DNA from: an uncultured Olsenella sp.
GTDB lineage: Bacteria; Actinomycetota; Coriobacteriia; Coriobacteriales; Atopobiaceae
DNA length: 64,000 nucleotides
NCBI GenBank assembly: GCA_900314535.1
Contig: OMVT01000010.1
Location: forward strand, 1 to 64,000
Direction of reading: 5' to 3'
Shown in pieces: positions 35,192 through 42,355 of this stretch. The notes beneath the pieces are model-generated. The model searched no databases. It saw only the letters and a list, made by a program, of their open reading frames with translations, and was not told the DNA's origin. The position numbers and the translations under genes were made by a program. Within the stretch, counting starts at the first letter, position 1. Every line of letters begins with the position of its first letter.

Positions 35192-36442
35192 ATGAGCTCG
35201 ACTCCACGCCATGAATCGCACCAACCACGCCGCCGTACGGCAGGCCATGCTGTGGGGACGGTGCCGGCGACCCATCTTTCGTCGCGCACGGCCCAGGTGA
35301 CGCAGAGGACGCGCGAGAAGAGCCGGGCGGGGCATGTACGCGAGGTCAAGCGCAAGTCGTCCCACGGACCGGCACCCTACATCCTGGGCACGATCATCGC
35401 AGTCGCAGTCGTCGCCTTCCTTGCAATCCGCGTCCTCCCGGGCGTGCTGAGCAGGATCGACAGTGCGGGCTCCAAGACGACGGTCGAGGAGGGCACCCAG
35501 GTCACGGTCACGGTGCCGAAGGGCGCTTCCGGCCAGACCATCTTCAAGACACTTGTCGAAGCAGGCCTTCTCGACAACAGCCAGTCGAGCGATTTCCTCA
35601 CTGCCTACAAGAGCCATGGGGACGACGCACAGATGCAGGCGGGCACCTACACTTTCACGGCAGGAGCGTCCGTCGAAGACATCGTGAACGGCCTCATTGC
35701 AGGGCCCAGCTCGAGCTATGCCTACAAGCTGACAGTGCCTGAAGGCTATACGGTCGCAAAGACCGCTGCGGCTGTCGCAGAAGCCATCCCTTCCATCACG
35801 GCCGACGATTTCACGGCGCAGGCAAAGGCATCGAACTATGTGGCAGACTATCCGTTCCTGGCCTCTGTACAGAGCGATTCCCTCGAGGGGTTCCTGTTCC
35901 CGAAGACCTACACGTTCAATGCGGATGTGGATGCCGACACGGTGATTCGTGCCATGCTCGACCAGTACAAGACGGAGATGGCATCCATCGACTTTGCCAC
36001 GGGCGAAGCGCAGATCAAGGCAAAGTACGGCATCACGATGTCTGACTATGATGTGCTGACCATGGCGTCGATTATCGAGCGCGAGGCTATGACGGACGAT
36101 CAGCGCGCAAACATCTCCTCTGTCTTCTACAACCGTCTCCAGGCTGCCATGCCGCTCCAGAGCGATGCGACGATGGGCTATGTTACAGGCGGCGAAGTGA
36201 CGGCAGACGACCTCAAGCAGGAATCGCCCTACAATACGTATCTCAACGAAGGCCTGCCGCCAACACCTATCTGCGCACCGAGCCTTGCCTCCATCCAGGC
36301 TGCGCTTGCTCCTGCCGACACGAACTATCTCTATTTCTATATCGTGCAGGAGAATGGCCAGACGACCTCGAGCTTCTCCGAGACGTATGACGAACATCTC
36401 GCAAGCATTGCTGCAAGCAGCAATGCAGAGACCGGGGAGTAG
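35192..36442 (+). CDS. mltG: Endolytic transglycosylase MltG (YceG-like)
   Basis: 416 residues. A basic cytoplasmic N-terminus of about 65 residues (Arg/His/Ser-rich) precedes one transmembrane helix (ILGTIIAVAVVAFLAIRVL) and the extracellular YceG domain. It cuts nascent glycan strands and sets their length. The catalytic Glu lies in LTMASIIEREAM, followed by SSVFYNRLQAAMPLQSDATM; YNTYLNEGLPPTPICAPSLA and the FSETYDEH end are family hallmarks. The gene usually precedes yqgF/aroE-type genes and here begins a run of tightly spaced genes (mltG, yqeG, prepilin peptidase). Confidence 0.95.
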   Translation: MSSTPRHESHQPRRRTAGHAVGTVPATHLSSRTAQVTQRTREKSRAGHVREVKRKSSHGPAPYILGTIIAVAVVAFLAIRVLPGVLSRIDSAGSKTTVEEGTQVTVTVPKGASGQTIFKTLVEAGLLDNSQSSDFLTAYKSHGDDAQMQAGTYTFTAGASVEDIVNGLIAGPSSSYAYKLTVPEGYTVAKTAAAVAEAIPSITADDFTAQAKASNYVADYPFLASVQSDSLEGFLFPKTYTFNADVDADTVIRAMLDQYKTEMASIDFATGEAQIKAKYGITMSDYDVLTMASIIEREAMTDDQRANISSVFYNRLQAAMPLQSDATMGYVTGGEVTADDLKQESPYNTYLNEGLPPTPICAPSLASIQAALAPADTNYLYFYIVQENGQTTSSFSETYDEHLASIAASSNAETGE

Positions 36443-36448
36443 GAGAGC

Positions 36449-36952
36449 GTGTCTCTCTTCGAGGCAAGCCGCTATGTCGCACGCATCGAGCTCATCGATC
36501 TCGATGCGCTCTGGCAGGAGGGCGTGCGCTTCCTTCTCGTAGACCGCGACAACACCTGCATGGCTCGCTCAACGATGCGCGTCGAACCTCCGGTCGCTGC
36601 CTGGTTCGCAAAGGCGCATGAGATCGGCTTTGCGACCTGCCTCGTCTCGAACAACTTCCATGGGACAGATGTCGAGAGGACAGCAGAAGAGCTTGACTCT
36701 GCCGTCGTCCACCATGCGATGAAGCCAGCACCGTTTGCGCTTGCGCATGCGCTGGCCCGCGAAGGGTTCTCTGCAGCAGAGACCTTACTTGTGGGAGACC
36801 AGATCTTCACGGATGTCGTGGCAGGAAACCTGGCGCATATCCCGACCATCCTTGTGCATCCGCTCTCGACGACAGACCTCTGGTATACGCAGATCCTGCG
36901 CCTCATCGAGCGTCCGCTTCTTACCGGCCACACTTTCGAAGGCGACCGATGA
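36449..36952 (+). CDS. yqeG: YqeG-family HAD phosphatase
   Basis: 167 residues, HAD superfamily subfamily IIIA. Motif I is LLVDRDNTC (nucleophile Asp; the family has DxDNT), motif II LVSNN, and Lys with motif III/IV at MKPAPFALAHAL and LLVGDQIFTDVVAGN. YqeG enzymes are predicted phosphatidylglycerophosphatases or small-molecule phosphatases. The GTG start at 36449 has GGAG 7 nt upstream and it overlaps the next gene by ATGA. Confidence 0.88.
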   Translation: MSLFEASRYVARIELIDLDALWQEGVRFLLVDRDNTCMARSTMRVEPPVAAWFAKAHEIGFATCLVSNNFHGTDVERTAEELDSAVVHHAMKPAPFALAHALAREGFSAAETLLVGDQIFTDVVAGNLAHIPTILVHPLSTTDLWYTQILRLIERPLLTGHTFEGDR

Positions 36953-37422
36953 TTGTCTGTGCCGCCCTGGCGCTCGCCTTGGCTGTAGCCGTGGAGGATG
37001 CACGCAGCTGCCGTATCCGGAACAGCTTCTGCCTTGCTATGGCAGCCCTGGGCCTTGCCTTCCAGGCGGTGCGCATCTGGGCGCCTGTGCTCTCAGGCGT
37101 GCTTGCCTTCCATCTTGCAGATGAGACTTCTGCCCCCCAGGCCGTTCTGGCAGCTGCGCTCCTTGTGCTCCTTTGTGGTGCAGCGCTTGAGCTTGCATGG
37201 CGCAGGATCCATGGAGCCTCCGGCATGGGGCTCGGCGATATTAAATACATTGCTGCCTGGGCAACGCTTCTGGGACCTGGCATCTTCGTGCCGCTTGCTG
37301 TGGCAGCGCTTGTGGGCGCCCTGGTCACGCTCGTTCAGAAGAAGAAGTGCTTTGCCTTCGGACCCTATCTTTCGGCCGCATTCTCCTGCATGCTTGTGCT
37401 CCTGTCCTCAGGCATCCTCTGA
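36949..37422 (+). CDS. Prepilin peptidase, type IV (A24 family, catalytic domain only)
   Basis: 157 residues, highly hydrophobic, 5-6 membrane segments. The two catalytic Asp contexts of A24 aspartyl peptidases are present: VEDARSCRIRN at the N-terminus (D-x3-R/IPN type) and GMGLGDIKYIAAWA (GxGD). The N-terminal methyltransferase domain of PilD is absent, as in many short Gram-positive or archaeal-type enzymes. It would cleave leader peptides of type IV pilin-like or competence pseudopilins, but none is encoded in this window. Coupled to yqeG by ATGA overlap. Confidence 0.85.
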   Translation: MIVCAALALALAVAVEDARSCRIRNSFCLAMAALGLAFQAVRIWAPVLSGVLAFHLADETSAPQAVLAAALLVLLCGAALELAWRRIHGASGMGLGDIKYIAAWATLLGPGIFVPLAVAALVGALVTLVQKKKCFAFGPYLSAAFSCMLVLLSSGIL

Positions 37423-37526
37423 TGCCCTGTTTTGATGCAGGATGCACGTGTGCTCTCCTCTGACAGGACAGCTTCGGTCTCGATGATAGAATCAAGGAGA
37501 TCAGACTGTGTTTTTCGGAGGTTTTG

Positions 37527-38078
37527 GTGGACAGACCATGCAATGGATATGTCGTACATGAAGGGTGCGATCATATCTTCTTCGTCGGCTTTCTCGGAGC
37601 CGGCAAGTCCACGGTGGCAAGAAATATCGGATGCCTCTTCTGCCGGCCCTATGTGGATACCGACCGCATGGTCGAAAGGATCCGCGGCAAGAGCGTCTGC
37701 GATATCTTCCGCGAGGATGGGGAAGAGTCGTTCCGCGATACGGAGACCGAGGTGCTCAGAAGCCTCAGCGAGAAGAAGTCGCTGCTCGTGAGCTGCGGCG
37801 GCGGCATCGTGGAGCGCTCCGAGAATGTCGACCTCATGCACAGCATGGGCAAGATCGTATTCTTGGATGGAGATCTCTCCGATTCGCTGAGGCAGATCCA
37901 GCACAAGGAGACACGGCCCGATCTGGGCGGCTGTCTCAAGGAGACGAGCGCCTGCTATAATCGCCGGCGTCCCCTCTATGAGGCGGCGGCAGACTATACG
38001 ATCGATATCAGGAACAAGAGCTTCGAAGAAGTCGCTTGCGATGCGTCGAAGCTTCTATGGGAGGAAGGGCTGCTATGA
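37527..38078 (+). CDS. aroK: Shikimate kinase
   Basis: 183 residues, step five of the shikimate pathway (shikimate to shikimate-3-phosphate). Catalytic features look intact: Walker A GFLGAGKST, PYVDTDRMVE (substrate Asp), ESFRDTETEVL (Arg), SCGGGIVE, lid-like HKETRPDLGG (Arg-Pro) and YNRRRPLYEAAADYTID. The GTG at 37527 is preferred (GGAGG 5 nt upstream); a TTG sits one codon earlier. TAGAAT at about 37488 may be a -10 box. The stop overlaps the start of the AroB-like gene (ATGA), showing the two are made together. Confidence 0.93.
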   Translation: MDRPCNGYVVHEGCDHIFFVGFLGAGKSTVARNIGCLFCRPYVDTDRMVERIRGKSVCDIFREDGEESFRDTETEVLRSLSEKKSLLVSCGGGIVERSENVDLMHSMGKIVFLDGDLSDSLRQIQHKETRPDLGGCLKETSACYNRRRPLYEAAADYTIDIRNKSFEEVACDASKLLWEEGLL

Positions 38079-39280
38079 GCGAAGAAGAGCTTGGGACGAG
38101 CGTCCCTCAGGACAACGGGGATGCTGCACAGGCTCCTGCCGATGTGGCTGAGGCTGCCGAAGTCCTTCAGGAAGAGGAAGCGCCGAAGTCTCCTCTGGCT
38201 GAGACGACCCGCCAGTGGGTGTCGCTTCCGGGCAGCTCCTGCAATGTCCGCATAGGCTCGGACAACCTCGAGAACTTCGGCCACGACCTCAAGAGCTCTG
38301 TCGGAAAGCCTGCGAAGGCTGCGCTCCTCGTGTCCGACAAGGCGGATCCGGACTTCGTCCAGGAGCTCCTCTGGCAGCTGAACGATGCCGGCTTCCAGGC
38401 GCTCAGGGGCTCTGTGCCGGGAGAGCTCACGCTTTCTGCGGCAGATGAACTCTTCGGCGAGCTTGACAGGCTGCATATCACGTCGGATGACCTGATTGTC
38501 TGTGTCGGTGCTGCCCCTGAGCTCTCGCTTGTCTTATATGCTGCCGGCGCCTGGTGTGGCCGTACGCCGGTCTGCGCCCTGCCGCTCGATCTCGAGGCAC
38601 TTGTCTGCGCAACCGTCACGCCTGAAGGAATCTCGGTCGGCACGCACAGGGATATGGTGTCTGGCCATAACAGCCTGAAGAACGTCTTTGCCGACTTTGC
38701 CCGCATCGACCTCGGACCTTCCGAGAAGCGTCTCCACGCCTATGCGACGATGGTCGCGACTGCGGTCTCCGATACGGAAAAGGCATTCGAAGCGCTCTAT
38801 AACAGGCGCGATGCCCTCGCCGAAGCTGACGAGGTGGCACTGCGCGAGCAGGTGAACGAGACGCTCAGGAGCCGCGGCCGCATTGCCTCCTCGACCTCTG
38901 TTGCCGTGCGCCAGTCGCTTTCCTACGGCGTCACGTTTGCAGAGGCGCTGAGCCATCTTGTGGAAGGCGTTCCCGCCTCGACGCTTCTGGCCGAAGGCCT
39001 GCGCTTCACGGCACGCGTGGCTGTGACCGAGGAGGACTTCAAGGTCGACGATATGCTTGCCCAGGACGAGCTGCTCTCAGCGCTGGGGCTGGGCACGGTC
39101 AGCGCCACGGTAGATCCCGATGCGCTCCTGCATGAGATGCGCGCCTGCGCACATCTGCGCTCGAACCGCTTCATGCTCGCCGTGCCGCGCGCTTTCGGAC
39201 GCGTCCGTCTCGCGACGATCGAGGATGCCCGCCTCAAGGCGCATCTCGAGGCCTGGTGCGCACAGCACCAGGCGGACTAG
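38075..39280 (+). CDS. AroB-fold protein lacking dehydroquinate-synthase catalytic residues
   Basis: 401 residues: an acidic N-terminal extension of ~45, then a domain aligning along its length with 3-dehydroquinate synthase (AroB), but with NAD, Zn and substrate residues lost. The nucleotide-binding GGGVxGD reads VGAAPELS (145-152); the DSSVGGKT segment reads ALVCATVTPEGISVG. The Zn-ligand block NxGHTFGHxxE reads LSYGVTFAEALSH (Val286 for the first His), and HGExVAxGM reads ASTLLAEGLRF. The residual similarity (YG.TFA.AL...EG...LLAEGLRF) makes a common origin likely. Translational coupling to an intact AroK suggests a binding or regulatory partner rather than an enzyme (inference). Alternatively it has acquired another activity. 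Confidence 0.7.
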   Translation: MSEEELGTSVPQDNGDAAQAPADVAEAAEVLQEEEAPKSPLAETTRQWVSLPGSSCNVRIGSDNLENFGHDLKSSVGKPAKAALLVSDKADPDFVQELLWQLNDAGFQALRGSVPGELTLSAADELFGELDRLHITSDDLIVCVGAAPELSLVLYAAGAWCGRTPVCALPLDLEALVCATVTPEGISVGTHRDMVSGHNSLKNVFADFARIDLGPSEKRLHAYATMVATAVSDTEKAFEALYNRRDALAEADEVALREQVNETLRSRGRIASSTSVAVRQSLSYGVTFAEALSHLVEGVPASTLLAEGLRFTARVAVTEEDFKVDDMLAQDELLSALGLGTVSATVDPDALLHEMRACAHLRSNRFMLAVPRAFGRVRLATIEDARLKAHLEAWCAQHQAD

Positions 39281-39316: not shown

Positions 39317-40453
39317 ATGGCAGATCAGGAAATGGGAAAGGCGCGTGTTGCACGCCTTCGTGCCCTCATGCAGGAGTATGGATATGACGCAGTCGTGCTG
39401 CGCCACAATCCGGATCTGCGCTGGCTCACAGGAGCCGAGCGCACGTTCGACGACGAGATCGCACATACGGCCTTCGTGACCCGCGAGGGCCAGTGGCTCC
39501 ATACGGATTCGCGCTACTTCGGCACATTCCAGGATCGCCTTGGCAAGGATACGGACTGGCAGCTCGATATGGATGCCGTGAGCCATCCGGCCTGGACAGC
39601 CTCCCTGATCAGGAAGACCCATGCCCGTGTCGTCGCAATCGAGGACACGGCAGACCTTGCCTTCTTCGATGCGCTCGAGGCAGAGCTTGGCCGCCAGTCG
39701 GCGGCATGCCTCCTGCCGCGCATGCATGGCACGGTCTCGGCGCTGCGTGTCGTGAAGGACGCCGAAGAGGTCTCCCTCATGCGCCATGCCCAGACCATCA
39801 CGGATGCTGCCTTCGAGCACATCTGCGGCTACATCAAGCCGGGACTCAACGAGCTCCAGATCAGGGCGGAGCTTGAGAGCGCGATGTTCGACCGCGGTGC
39901 CGATGCGCTCTCGTTCGACACGATCATCGCAAGCGGCCCGAACGGTGCCAACCCGCATGCCCAGCCGGGGGAGCGCCGCGTCGAGGAGGGCGACCTCATC
40001 GTCATGGACTATGGTGCCGGCTACCATGACTACCATTCGGATATGACAAGGACCGTGTGCGTCGGCAAGGCGACAGATGAGCAGAAGCAGGTCTACGCCG
40101 TCGTCCGCAAGGCGAACGAGACCTGCGAGGCAGCAATCCATGCCGGTGTCATCGGCGTCGATATCCATAACCTCGCCGTCAAGGTCATCTCCGATGCCGG
40201 CTACGGAGACTACTTCAAGCATGGTCTCGGCCACGGTGTCGGCCTCCAGATTCACGAAGCACCGTACTTCAGCCGCTCCGGCGCTCCGGCCGAGCACGGC
40301 GTCATCCCTGCAGGATCTGTGATCACGGTCGAGCCGGGCATCTACCTCCCGGGACGCTTCGGCATCCGCCTCGAGGACTTCGGACAGGTGACCGAGGATG
40401 GCTACGACGTCTTCACGGCATCCGCCCACGACCTCGTCGAGATCCCCTGCTAG
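39317..40453 (+). CDS. pepQ: M24 metallopeptidase, Xaa-Pro aminopeptidase/dipeptidase
   Basis: 378 residues. The N-terminal creatinase-like domain (RVARLRALMQEYGYDAVVLR) is followed by the pita-bread catalytic domain with all five metal ligands: Asp in VMDYGAGYHDYHSDMTRT (two), His in GLGHGVGLQIHEAPY, Glu in ITVEPGIYLPG and Glu in GIRLEDFGQV. It removes N-terminal residues preceding proline. The ATG at 39317 has AAAGGA 9 nt upstream; a TTG at 39281 abuts the previous stop but lacks a clear RBS. pepQ-efp gene order is common in Gram-positive bacteria and fits proline-related translation and turnover. Confidence 0.92.
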   Translation: MADQEMGKARVARLRALMQEYGYDAVVLRHNPDLRWLTGAERTFDDEIAHTAFVTREGQWLHTDSRYFGTFQDRLGKDTDWQLDMDAVSHPAWTASLIRKTHARVVAIEDTADLAFFDALEAELGRQSAACLLPRMHGTVSALRVVKDAEEVSLMRHAQTITDAAFEHICGYIKPGLNELQIRAELESAMFDRGADALSFDTIIASGPNGANPHAQPGERRVEEGDLIVMDYGAGYHDYHSDMTRTVCVGKATDEQKQVYAVVRKANETCEAAIHAGVIGVDIHNLAVKVISDAGYGDYFKHGLGHGVGLQIHEAPYFSRSGAPAEHGVIPAGSVITVEPGIYLPGRFGIRLEDFGQVTEDGYDVFTASAHDLVEIPC

Positions 40454-40563: not shown

Positions 40564-41133
40564 GTGGCAACGCAGACCATCAGCACCGCTGATTTCAAGA
40601 ACGGCATGGGCCTCAAGATCGGCAACAAGTACTACACGATTGTCGAGTTCCAGCATGTCAAGCCGGGCAAGGGCGGCGCATTCGTGCGCTACAAGATCAA
40701 GGACCTGCGCGATGGCCGCACGATCGACCAGACCTGCAATGCAGGCACGAAGTTCGACAGCGTGCAGCTCATCACCAAGGAGATGCAGTATCTCTACAAC
40801 GACGGCGTCGACTACTACTTCATGGACAACGACACGTATGAGCAGGTCGCTGTTCCTGCCGACTTCATCGGCGACAACGCCCAGTGGCTCGTCGAGAACG
40901 ACAACGCCTCTCTGCTCTACGCTGACGATGAGCTCCTCGGCGTGACGCCTGCCATGTTCATCGAGGTCGAGATTACGCAGACCGACCCGGGCTTCAAGGG
41001 CGACACGGTCCAGGGCGGCACGAAGCCGGCCACGATCTCCACGGGCGCTACGATCCAGGTGCCGATGTACCTGAACCAGGGCGAGAAGATCAAGGTCGAC
41101 ACGCGCGACGGCAAGTTCGTCCAGCGCGTCTAG
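40564..41133 (+). CDS. efp: Translation elongation factor P
   Basis: 189 residues, three OB-like domains. EF-P relieves ribosome stalling at polyproline. The domain I tip loop reads HVKPGKGGAFVRYKIKDL, with Lys36 at the position modified in other bacteria; the modification type is unknown and no epmA/B or ymfI homologue is seen here. The signature at LLYADDELLGVTPAMFIEVE and the C-terminal GATIQVPMYLNQGEKIKVDT are standard. GTG start with AGGAAAGAG upstream. Terminator follows. Confidence 0.97.
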   Translation: MATQTISTADFKNGMGLKIGNKYYTIVEFQHVKPGKGGAFVRYKIKDLRDGRTIDQTCNAGTKFDSVQLITKEMQYLYNDGVDYYFMDNDTYEQVAVPADFIGDNAQWLVENDNASLLYADDELLGVTPAMFIEVEITQTDPGFKGDTVQGGTKPATISTGATIQVPMYLNQGEKIKVDTRDGKFVQRV

Positions 41134-41342: not shown

Positions 41343-41702
41343 ATGGACGAGCTCTCCATCTCTGGCATTGGCATCTCCCGCCGCGTCATCGCGACCGTCG
41401 TTGCGCTGGCAGCAGAAAAGGTCGAAGGAGTCGCCTCTGTCGGCGGCAATGATACGCTTACCTCGAGCCTCATCAGGGTCTTCACGGCCAAGAGCCTCGA
41501 TGTCGCACAGGCAGTCGAGTCCGAAGAAGAGGACGGCCGCCTGCATATCACGGTCCATCTGTCGGTCTTCTATGGCTACCCGTTCTGCGAGCTTGCGCAG
41601 AACGTGCGCCAGGCAGTCGCAGATGCCGTGTCCGAACAGATCGGCGTTGAAGTATCGGCAGTCGATGTCTGCATCGACAGCCTCGTATTCCCCAAGGAGT
41701 AG
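41343..41702 (+). CDS. Asp23/Gls24 family envelope-stress protein
   Basis: 119 residues of the Asp23/Gls24 family (DUF322): ISGIGISRRVIATVVALAAE, KVEGVASVGG, then VHLSVFYGYPFCELAQNVRQ and AVADAVSEQIGVEVSAVDV. These proteins coat the inner membrane or sit in the cytoplasm and respond to alkaline or envelope stress. The asp23-like/nusB adjacency is common in Gram-positive bacteria. The nusB RBS lies in the last codons of this gene, so they form one operon. Confidence 0.9.
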   Translation: MDELSISGIGISRRVIATVVALAAEKVEGVASVGGNDTLTSSLIRVFTAKSLDVAQAVESEEEDGRLHITVHLSVFYGYPFCELAQNVRQAVADAVSEQIGVEVSAVDVCIDSLVFPKE

Positions 41703-41707
41703 AAGCC

Positions 41708-42355
41708 TTGTCAAAGCAATCGTCAAAGCAGTTCAAGGGACGCACCCTTGCACGCAGCCAGGCCCTGCAGATCATCTTCCAGGCAGAGGCAACGGGCCGT
41801 GCCGTGGATGAGGTGCTCGATGGGGACTATGCCCTCTCCGAAGGCCCGCTCGATCCCTTCGGCGAGCGTCTGGCACGTGGCACCTGGTCGCTGCGTCCCG
41901 GCCTTGACCGCATCATCGACTCCGTCGCTACGAACTGGTCGCTCTTCCGCATGCCGGCAGTCGATCGCAATCTCCTGAGGCTTGCCCTCTATGAGATCCT
42001 CGAGGTCGACGAGGTCGAGCTGCCTGTCACGATCGACGAATGCGTCGAGCTTGCCAAGGCCTATGGCACGGACGAATCGAGCCGCTTCGTGAACGGCGTG
42101 CTCGGAAAGATCGCACGCGAGCTCGAGGCAGGACGCGACCTCAAGCGCGAAGCTGAAGAGGGGACCGAGGAGGCAGAGGCGCTTGCCGCTGCAGCCCCCG
42201 AAGCAGAAGTCCCCGAAGAAGAGCGCGAGTGGCCTGCCTATGGTGCCGAGATCCGTGCCGAGGAAGAGGCTGAAGGTGCCGAGGAGGGCACCTGGCAGCC
42301 GGGCGAGGATGCAGAAGACGGCGATGAGGCCGCAGAGCCGGGCGAGGACGCGTAA
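41708..42355 (+). CDS. nusB: Transcription antitermination factor NusB with acidic C-terminal extension
   Basis: 215 residues; typical NusB is 130-150. The core is clear: GRTLARSQALQIIFQAEATG, DRIIDSVATNWSLFRMPAVD, RNLLRLALYEILEVDEVELP, VTIDECVELAKAYGTDESSR and FVNGVLGKIA. NusB binds boxA RNA with NusE in rRNA antitermination. After about residue 145 there is a Glu/Ala-rich tail of ~70 residues with almost no basic residues, presumably disordered. The start is the TTG at 41708, 7 nt after AAGGAG; no ATG is available. The TAA stop overlaps the xseB ATG. Confidence 0.92.
   Translation: MSKQSSKQFKGRTLARSQALQIIFQAEATGRAVDEVLDGDYALSEGPLDPFGERLARGTWSLRPGLDRIIDSVATNWSLFRMPAVDRNLLRLALYEILEVDEVELPVTIDECVELAKAYGTDESSRFVNGVLGKIARELEAGRDLKREAEEGTEEAEALAAAAPEAEVPEEEREWPAYGAEIRAEEEAEGAEEGTWQPGEDAEDGDEAAEPGEDA

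Follow-up and report, generated by a model that had tools for sequence, protein, structure and literature searches.

The window analysed here, a 64,000-nucleotide stretch of a contig from an uncultured Olsenella sp., carries at positions 38075-39280 (forward strand) an intact open reading frame, aroB*, whose 401-aa product (AroB*) is a protein of the dehydroquinate (DHQ) synthase fold that appears catalytically dead. Because AroB* has lost its catalytic residues yet is predicted to fold, is translated with its neighbour and is under purifying selection, our comparisons show, at the level of sequence, that it has a protein-level function other than dehydroquinate synthesis. Our best explanation, to which we would give about an even chance, is that AroB* is a displaced and repurposed DHQ synthase that serves as a binding or scaffold protein with no catalysis of its own, in most cases produced together with a kinase of shifted specificity (AroK*) encoded immediately upstream.

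AroB* keeps the fold and not the active site of DHQ synthase

Scored against the aroB model TIGR01357, AroB* reaches 27.6 bits, below the equivalog cut-off of 305, and the Pfam model of the DHQ synthase C-terminal domain gives 17.5 bits, where the cut-off is 27.6. Its homology to DHQ synthase and the shared fold are nonetheless certain, because a family profile of 48 relatives matches the M. tuberculosis DHQ synthase 3qbd (2.5e-15) and because a Foldseek search with the AlphaFold2 model (pLDDT 91.8, with the first ~40 residues disordered) returns the DHQ synthases 5eks and 3qbd at TM ~0.86 (target length) and 15-20% identity. The fold spans residues 44-401, preceded by a variable tail at residues 1-43. 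The sequence-only reading had highlighted an acidic N-terminal extension; the acidic stretch is present (12 D/E and 1 K/R in residues 1-43), but it is predicted to be disordered (block pLDDT 44-59) and its length is not conserved, varying from a few to more than 50 residues among relatives, so we dropped it as a functional domain or defining feature. A frameshift or assembly artefact was also rejected, given intact frames in well over 100 genomes, as was plasmid carriage of the locus, for which a plasmid comparison gave no match.

We aligned the window AroB* with 27 true AroBs of the same order, in which all positions named here are invariant. Residue names follow A. nidulans DHQS numbering, with equivalences that we assume from motifs and general knowledge of the enzyme. 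In the window protein the NAD glycine motif GGG has become GAA (145-147), GGK has become TPE (182-184) and KN has become RD (192-193), with further replacements at D119 (S151), R130 (G162), K197 (A228), N268 (S283), H275 (E290) and K356 (A359). The Zn ligands are replaced as well (E194 by T225, H271 by V286 and H287 by A301) and are not retained family-wide. Only R264 is kept (as R279), and the K250 position holds R267. Across 61 AroB* of two families, the NAD, metal and substrate residues have given way, mostly to residues that differ from protein to protein. Departures from this pattern are the NAD loop's first Gly and the R264-equivalent Arg, which are kept (49/52 and 9/9), and the K250 position, which is Arg in 46/52 and 9/9. 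The initial description of an AroB-fold protein without the NAD glycine motif, the GGK lysine and the Zn histidines therefore agrees with the alignment, which does not restore these residues, and the survey extends their loss to the whole family. AroB* cannot be expected to make dehydroquinate, because mutation of the metal-binding His residues is by itself enough to kill DHQ synthase (PMC9074039).

Translational coupling, gene order and selection

The upstream gene, aroK* (37524-38078, forward strand, with a TTG or GTG start), encodes a kinase of the shikimate kinase family. The aroB* ATG at 38075 overlaps the aroK* TGA (38076-38078) in a 4-bp ATGA (38075-38078), and a Shine-Dalgarno-like GGAGG lies inside aroK* at 38059-38063, ~12 nt before the ATG. 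This overlap is conserved in all loci with both genes, reading NTGA in 50/50 loci (from the two families plus G078) and in 59/59 loci from named genomes, two sets that share some genomes and so cannot be summed as independent. The translational coupling proposed from the window alone is borne out by this universality.

The remaining genes of the locus, all on the forward strand, follow a recurring order, with the conserved neighbours mltG (YceG family, 35192-36442) and the HAD phosphatase gene yqeG (36449-36952) upstream, then a variable A24 prepilin-peptidase-like gene (36949-37422), and the conserved pepP/M24 aminopeptidase gene (39317-40453) downstream. Beyond pepP lie genes that we take, from position and general knowledge, to be efp (40564-41133), an asp23-like gene (41343-41702) and nusB (41708-42355). 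Since mltG-yqeG...pepP-efp-nusB is the ancestral order, these neighbours give no functional hint. Within this setting AroB* shows dN/dS values of 0.07-0.29 in nine close pairs, indicating purifying selection, and catalytic loss, purifying selection and a conserved expression context coincide as in a pseudoenzyme under selection.

AroK* carries a changed pocket residue

AroK* resembles shikimate kinase (AroK, PF01202) in keeping the equivalents of the P-loop, Asp34, Arg58, GGG, Arg117 and Arg136, all of which are present in the window protein (Walker A, Asp47, Arg71, GGG and Arg148 among them). It differs at a pocket and lid position, where Leu119 of shikimate kinases is Asp133, and in an N-terminal motif, C15-D16-H17, that precedes the first strand. 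The lid Asp and the CDH motif occur in 113/113 AroK*, whereas the lid position in 16 ordinary aroK is Leu, Met or Tyr; the AroK* of G078 has neither the lid Asp nor the Cys of CDH. Leu119 belongs to the lipophilic lining of the shikimate pocket (PMC7144000). Since all 113 share the lid Asp and CDH and Leu119 lines that pocket, AroK* is unlikely to be an ordinary shikimate kinase, and its earlier description as fully conserved was wrong at this one pocket residue. Losses within the shikimate-kinase set are rare (R136 in 4/104, and R58, G80 and R117 once each). At four loci (L028, L029, L043 and L051, from G059, G071, G003 and G012), AroK* lacks individual shikimate-binding residues (R136, or R58 and G80), and aroB* is intact.

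Dehydroquinate source and history of the locus

The genome that contains the window (2.41 Mb, 98.5% complete) also encodes a true aroB on contig C57, scoring 340 bits against TIGR01357 and thus above the cut-off of 305. It belongs to a complete operon in the order aroF-tyrA-aroB-aroA-aroC-pheA-aroE::SK-aroQ, whose products include DAHP synthase, prephenate dehydrogenase, chorismate mutase-prephenate dehydratase and a type II dehydroquinase. This second aro operon also provides a second complete shikimate kinase as an aroE-shikimate kinase fusion (L081:6174-7532, 453 aa). The suggestion of another route to dehydroquinate, or of scavenged aromatics, raised together with the idea of looking for a second aroB, is not supported, given this complete operon; absence of a second aroB is out, and an alternative (AroA'/AroB') route is not needed because the true aroB is there.

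Searched by sequence at E ≤ 0.001, AroB* was matched in 108/120 relatives, although outside Atopobiaceae many of these matches are true AroB. A single AroB* sequence gave no matches against genome contigs, and an alignment-based search gave 60 loci. Named AroB* loci are from Atopobiaceae, in Olsenella, Parafannyhessea, Lancefieldella, Thermophilibacter and Tractidigestivibacter. Of the 73 genomes sampled from this family, the window's own, 71 carry AroB*, the exceptions being G048 (missing) and G034 (a very diverged copy). So do 66 of the 67 genomes in a second family, f10, probably Coriobacteriaceae with Collinsella; in the remaining one, G155 (72% complete), the search showed a true aroB and nothing else. 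Both families carry the second aro operon, and the other sampled families usually have, at this locus, a normal aroB beside a normal aroK and aroC. In a tree, AroB* (including the long-branched G078 copy) split from all true AroBs (100/100), and second-operon AroBs formed a clade of their own (100/100). The aroK*-aroB* pair in the window is the ancestral aroK-aroB, since displaced. We infer that a second operon was gained and took the place of the ancestral aroB.

AroB* and AroK* do not always travel together. AroB* occurs without AroK* beside it in 11 genomes from 7 genera, which weakens the idea of an obligate pair. No aroA over the cut-off, aroC or true aroB was found in G034, G009 or G011, which keep AroB*, nor in G078, which keeps the pair, in drafts that are 94%, 86%, 57% and 94% complete, respectively; the AroB* of G034 and G078 are very diverged. 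Each single absence is weak in drafts of 57-94% completeness, but as a group these absences speak against AroB* working only in the shikimate pathway.

We also observed irregular loci. The aroB* frame is split at L180 (G026 C1:142787-145577), with mltG and yqeG between the halves, and at G162 C2:489052-491980, through rearrangement or misassembly. In the complete-looking family member G048 (L179, C2:603500-615500) both aroK* and aroB* are lost, and mltG and yqeG are not beside pepP; at ~606886 of this contig a 13708-aa open frame runs across pepP, possibly marking an assembly gap or masked stretch.

Proposed role and alternative explanations

The comparisons show that an ancestor of Atopobiaceae and the order's second family possessed aroK-aroB at the usual yqeG...pepP-efp position, and that a complete aro operon of foreign type now supplies dehydroquinate. 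The old AroB has lost its metal, NAD and substrate residues but keeps its fold, its co-translation and purifying selection; in our preferred reading it would work by binding. Its old cleft keeps the basic Arg267 and Arg279, adjoined by newly conserved Trp160, Arg310, Arg314, Asp325, Asp331 and Arg378; its ligand would be a small acid or a partner protein. In genomes that have AroK*, the two proteins would be made in a fixed ratio, a joint role is likely, and AroB* probably binds AroK* in a putative complex. AroK*, with its lid Asp, would probably phosphorylate a substrate other than shikimate or act as an ATP-driven switch, and it would be the dispensable partner; AroB* is the more persistent one.

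The sequence-only reading had proposed that AroB* holds or regulates AroK, and a subunit role of AroB* in shikimate synthesis, regulating or stabilising AroK*, would fit the universal 4-bp overlap, the presence of an adjacent aroB* reading frame beside AroK* in every locus read, and the existence of natural AroK-AroB fusions as NCBIfam models (NF010556 and NF010627). As the whole story it falls short, since AroB* is kept without AroK* and where the shikimate pathway is not detectable, and for the same reason we regard service to AroK in shikimate synthesis as unlikely; the second complete shikimate kinase in the window's genome and the changed AroK* pocket also speak against it. Somewhat less probable is a new enzyme performing different chemistry in the old cleft, an idea that draws on newly conserved residues shared by both families (D139, W160, R267, R310, R314, D325, D331 and R378) and on P183, which occupies the old GGK site in 51/52 of the window's family. 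The positions of H271, H275, H287, K161 and N162 vary freely, however, with no fixed replacements at the metal or NAD sites, and the strongest conservation, at Arg, Gly, Pro, Trp and Asp, fits fold or binding.

We consider it a little less probable again that AroB at this locus already moonlighted non-catalytically before the foreign operon arrived, so that catalysis moved and only the second role was kept. G108 and G178 (L182 and L183, family f2) each carry an independently degenerate AroB at the ancestral aroC-aroK-aroB locus with a true aroB elsewhere (dN/dS 0.20 between the two), and family f5 offers further, less clear cases in G076, at the same locus, and G109; G108 and G076 also have a foreign-type true aroB, and all of the degenerate frames are intact. 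These independent cases are few, however, the G076 protein still has many of its catalytic residues and is perhaps only decaying, and G109 lies outside the usual gene neighbourhood. A decaying relic kept only for operon continuity, with translation running through to pepP-efp, is very improbable: aroB* does sit inside a conserved gene cluster and diverges faster than its neighbours (in genomes without AroK*, identity to the second family is ~29% for AroB*, in statistics with missing values, vs. ~53% for pepP, with neighbour genes likewise evolving faster in those genomes), but the low dN/dS, frames uninterrupted in nearly all of 140 genomes and a confidently predicted fold all stand against it.

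As a tentative extension of the preferred binding or scaffold role, AroB* and AroK* might constitute an undescribed two-protein module of the two families that lies outside aromatic biosynthesis and couples a ligand-sensing or ligand-holding dead cyclase to a kinase of changed specificity.

Relation to known systems

AroB* shares with AroB (TIGR01357, PF01761/PF24621) its fold (TM 0.86), its gene position (aroK-aroB-pepP-efp) and its ancestry, but has lost every metal ligand, the glycines of the NAD motif and most of the substrate residues. In the bifunctional AroK/AroB proteins, too, a shikimate kinase and a DHQ synthase are produced as a unit, whereas the window encodes two proteins, a dead AroB and an altered AroK, and NF010556 and NF010627 match only the window kinase, far below cut-off. 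The sugar-phosphate cyclases (EEVS, DDGS and 2-deoxy-scyllo-inosose synthase) belong to the same fold superfamily, with 2gru among the AroB* structure matches, but they are metal- and NAD-dependent enzymes and AroB* lacks such residues.

Recruited or dead shikimate enzymes are already known. The dead domain of Candida albicans Aro1 is reportedly the DHQase. Four of the five domains of this protein are active (PMC9074039); the dead one is a precedent for AroB*, as an inactive shikimate-pathway domain retained within an active assembly, and differs in being a domain of a fused protein, not a DHQ synthase, in a pathway that is active. Plant SKL1, which resembles shikimate kinase and has been recruited into chloroplast biogenesis (PMC12203367, PMC2593004), is similarly a shikimate-pathway enzyme duplicate in another role, but it belongs to the kinase family, is found in plants and has no DHQ synthase partner. 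Searches of one literature collection on DHQ synthase pseudoenzymes and on DHQ synthase in Coriobacteria found no earlier description.

Core enzymes often leave dead copies that are decaying relics, but AroB* is kept under selection across two families, shares one start-stop overlap with aroK* in all pairs read and has outlasted a pathway that was replaced or lost, which makes it a clean case of a metabolic enzyme gaining a non-catalytic job. Its carriers include common gut and mouth bacteria such as Olsenella, Lancefieldella and relatives, and probably Collinsella. Automatic annotation is likely to call the two genes functional AroB and AroK, an error that would mislead reconstructions of the pathway, and the lid Asp of AroK* yields a specific prediction of a changed substrate.
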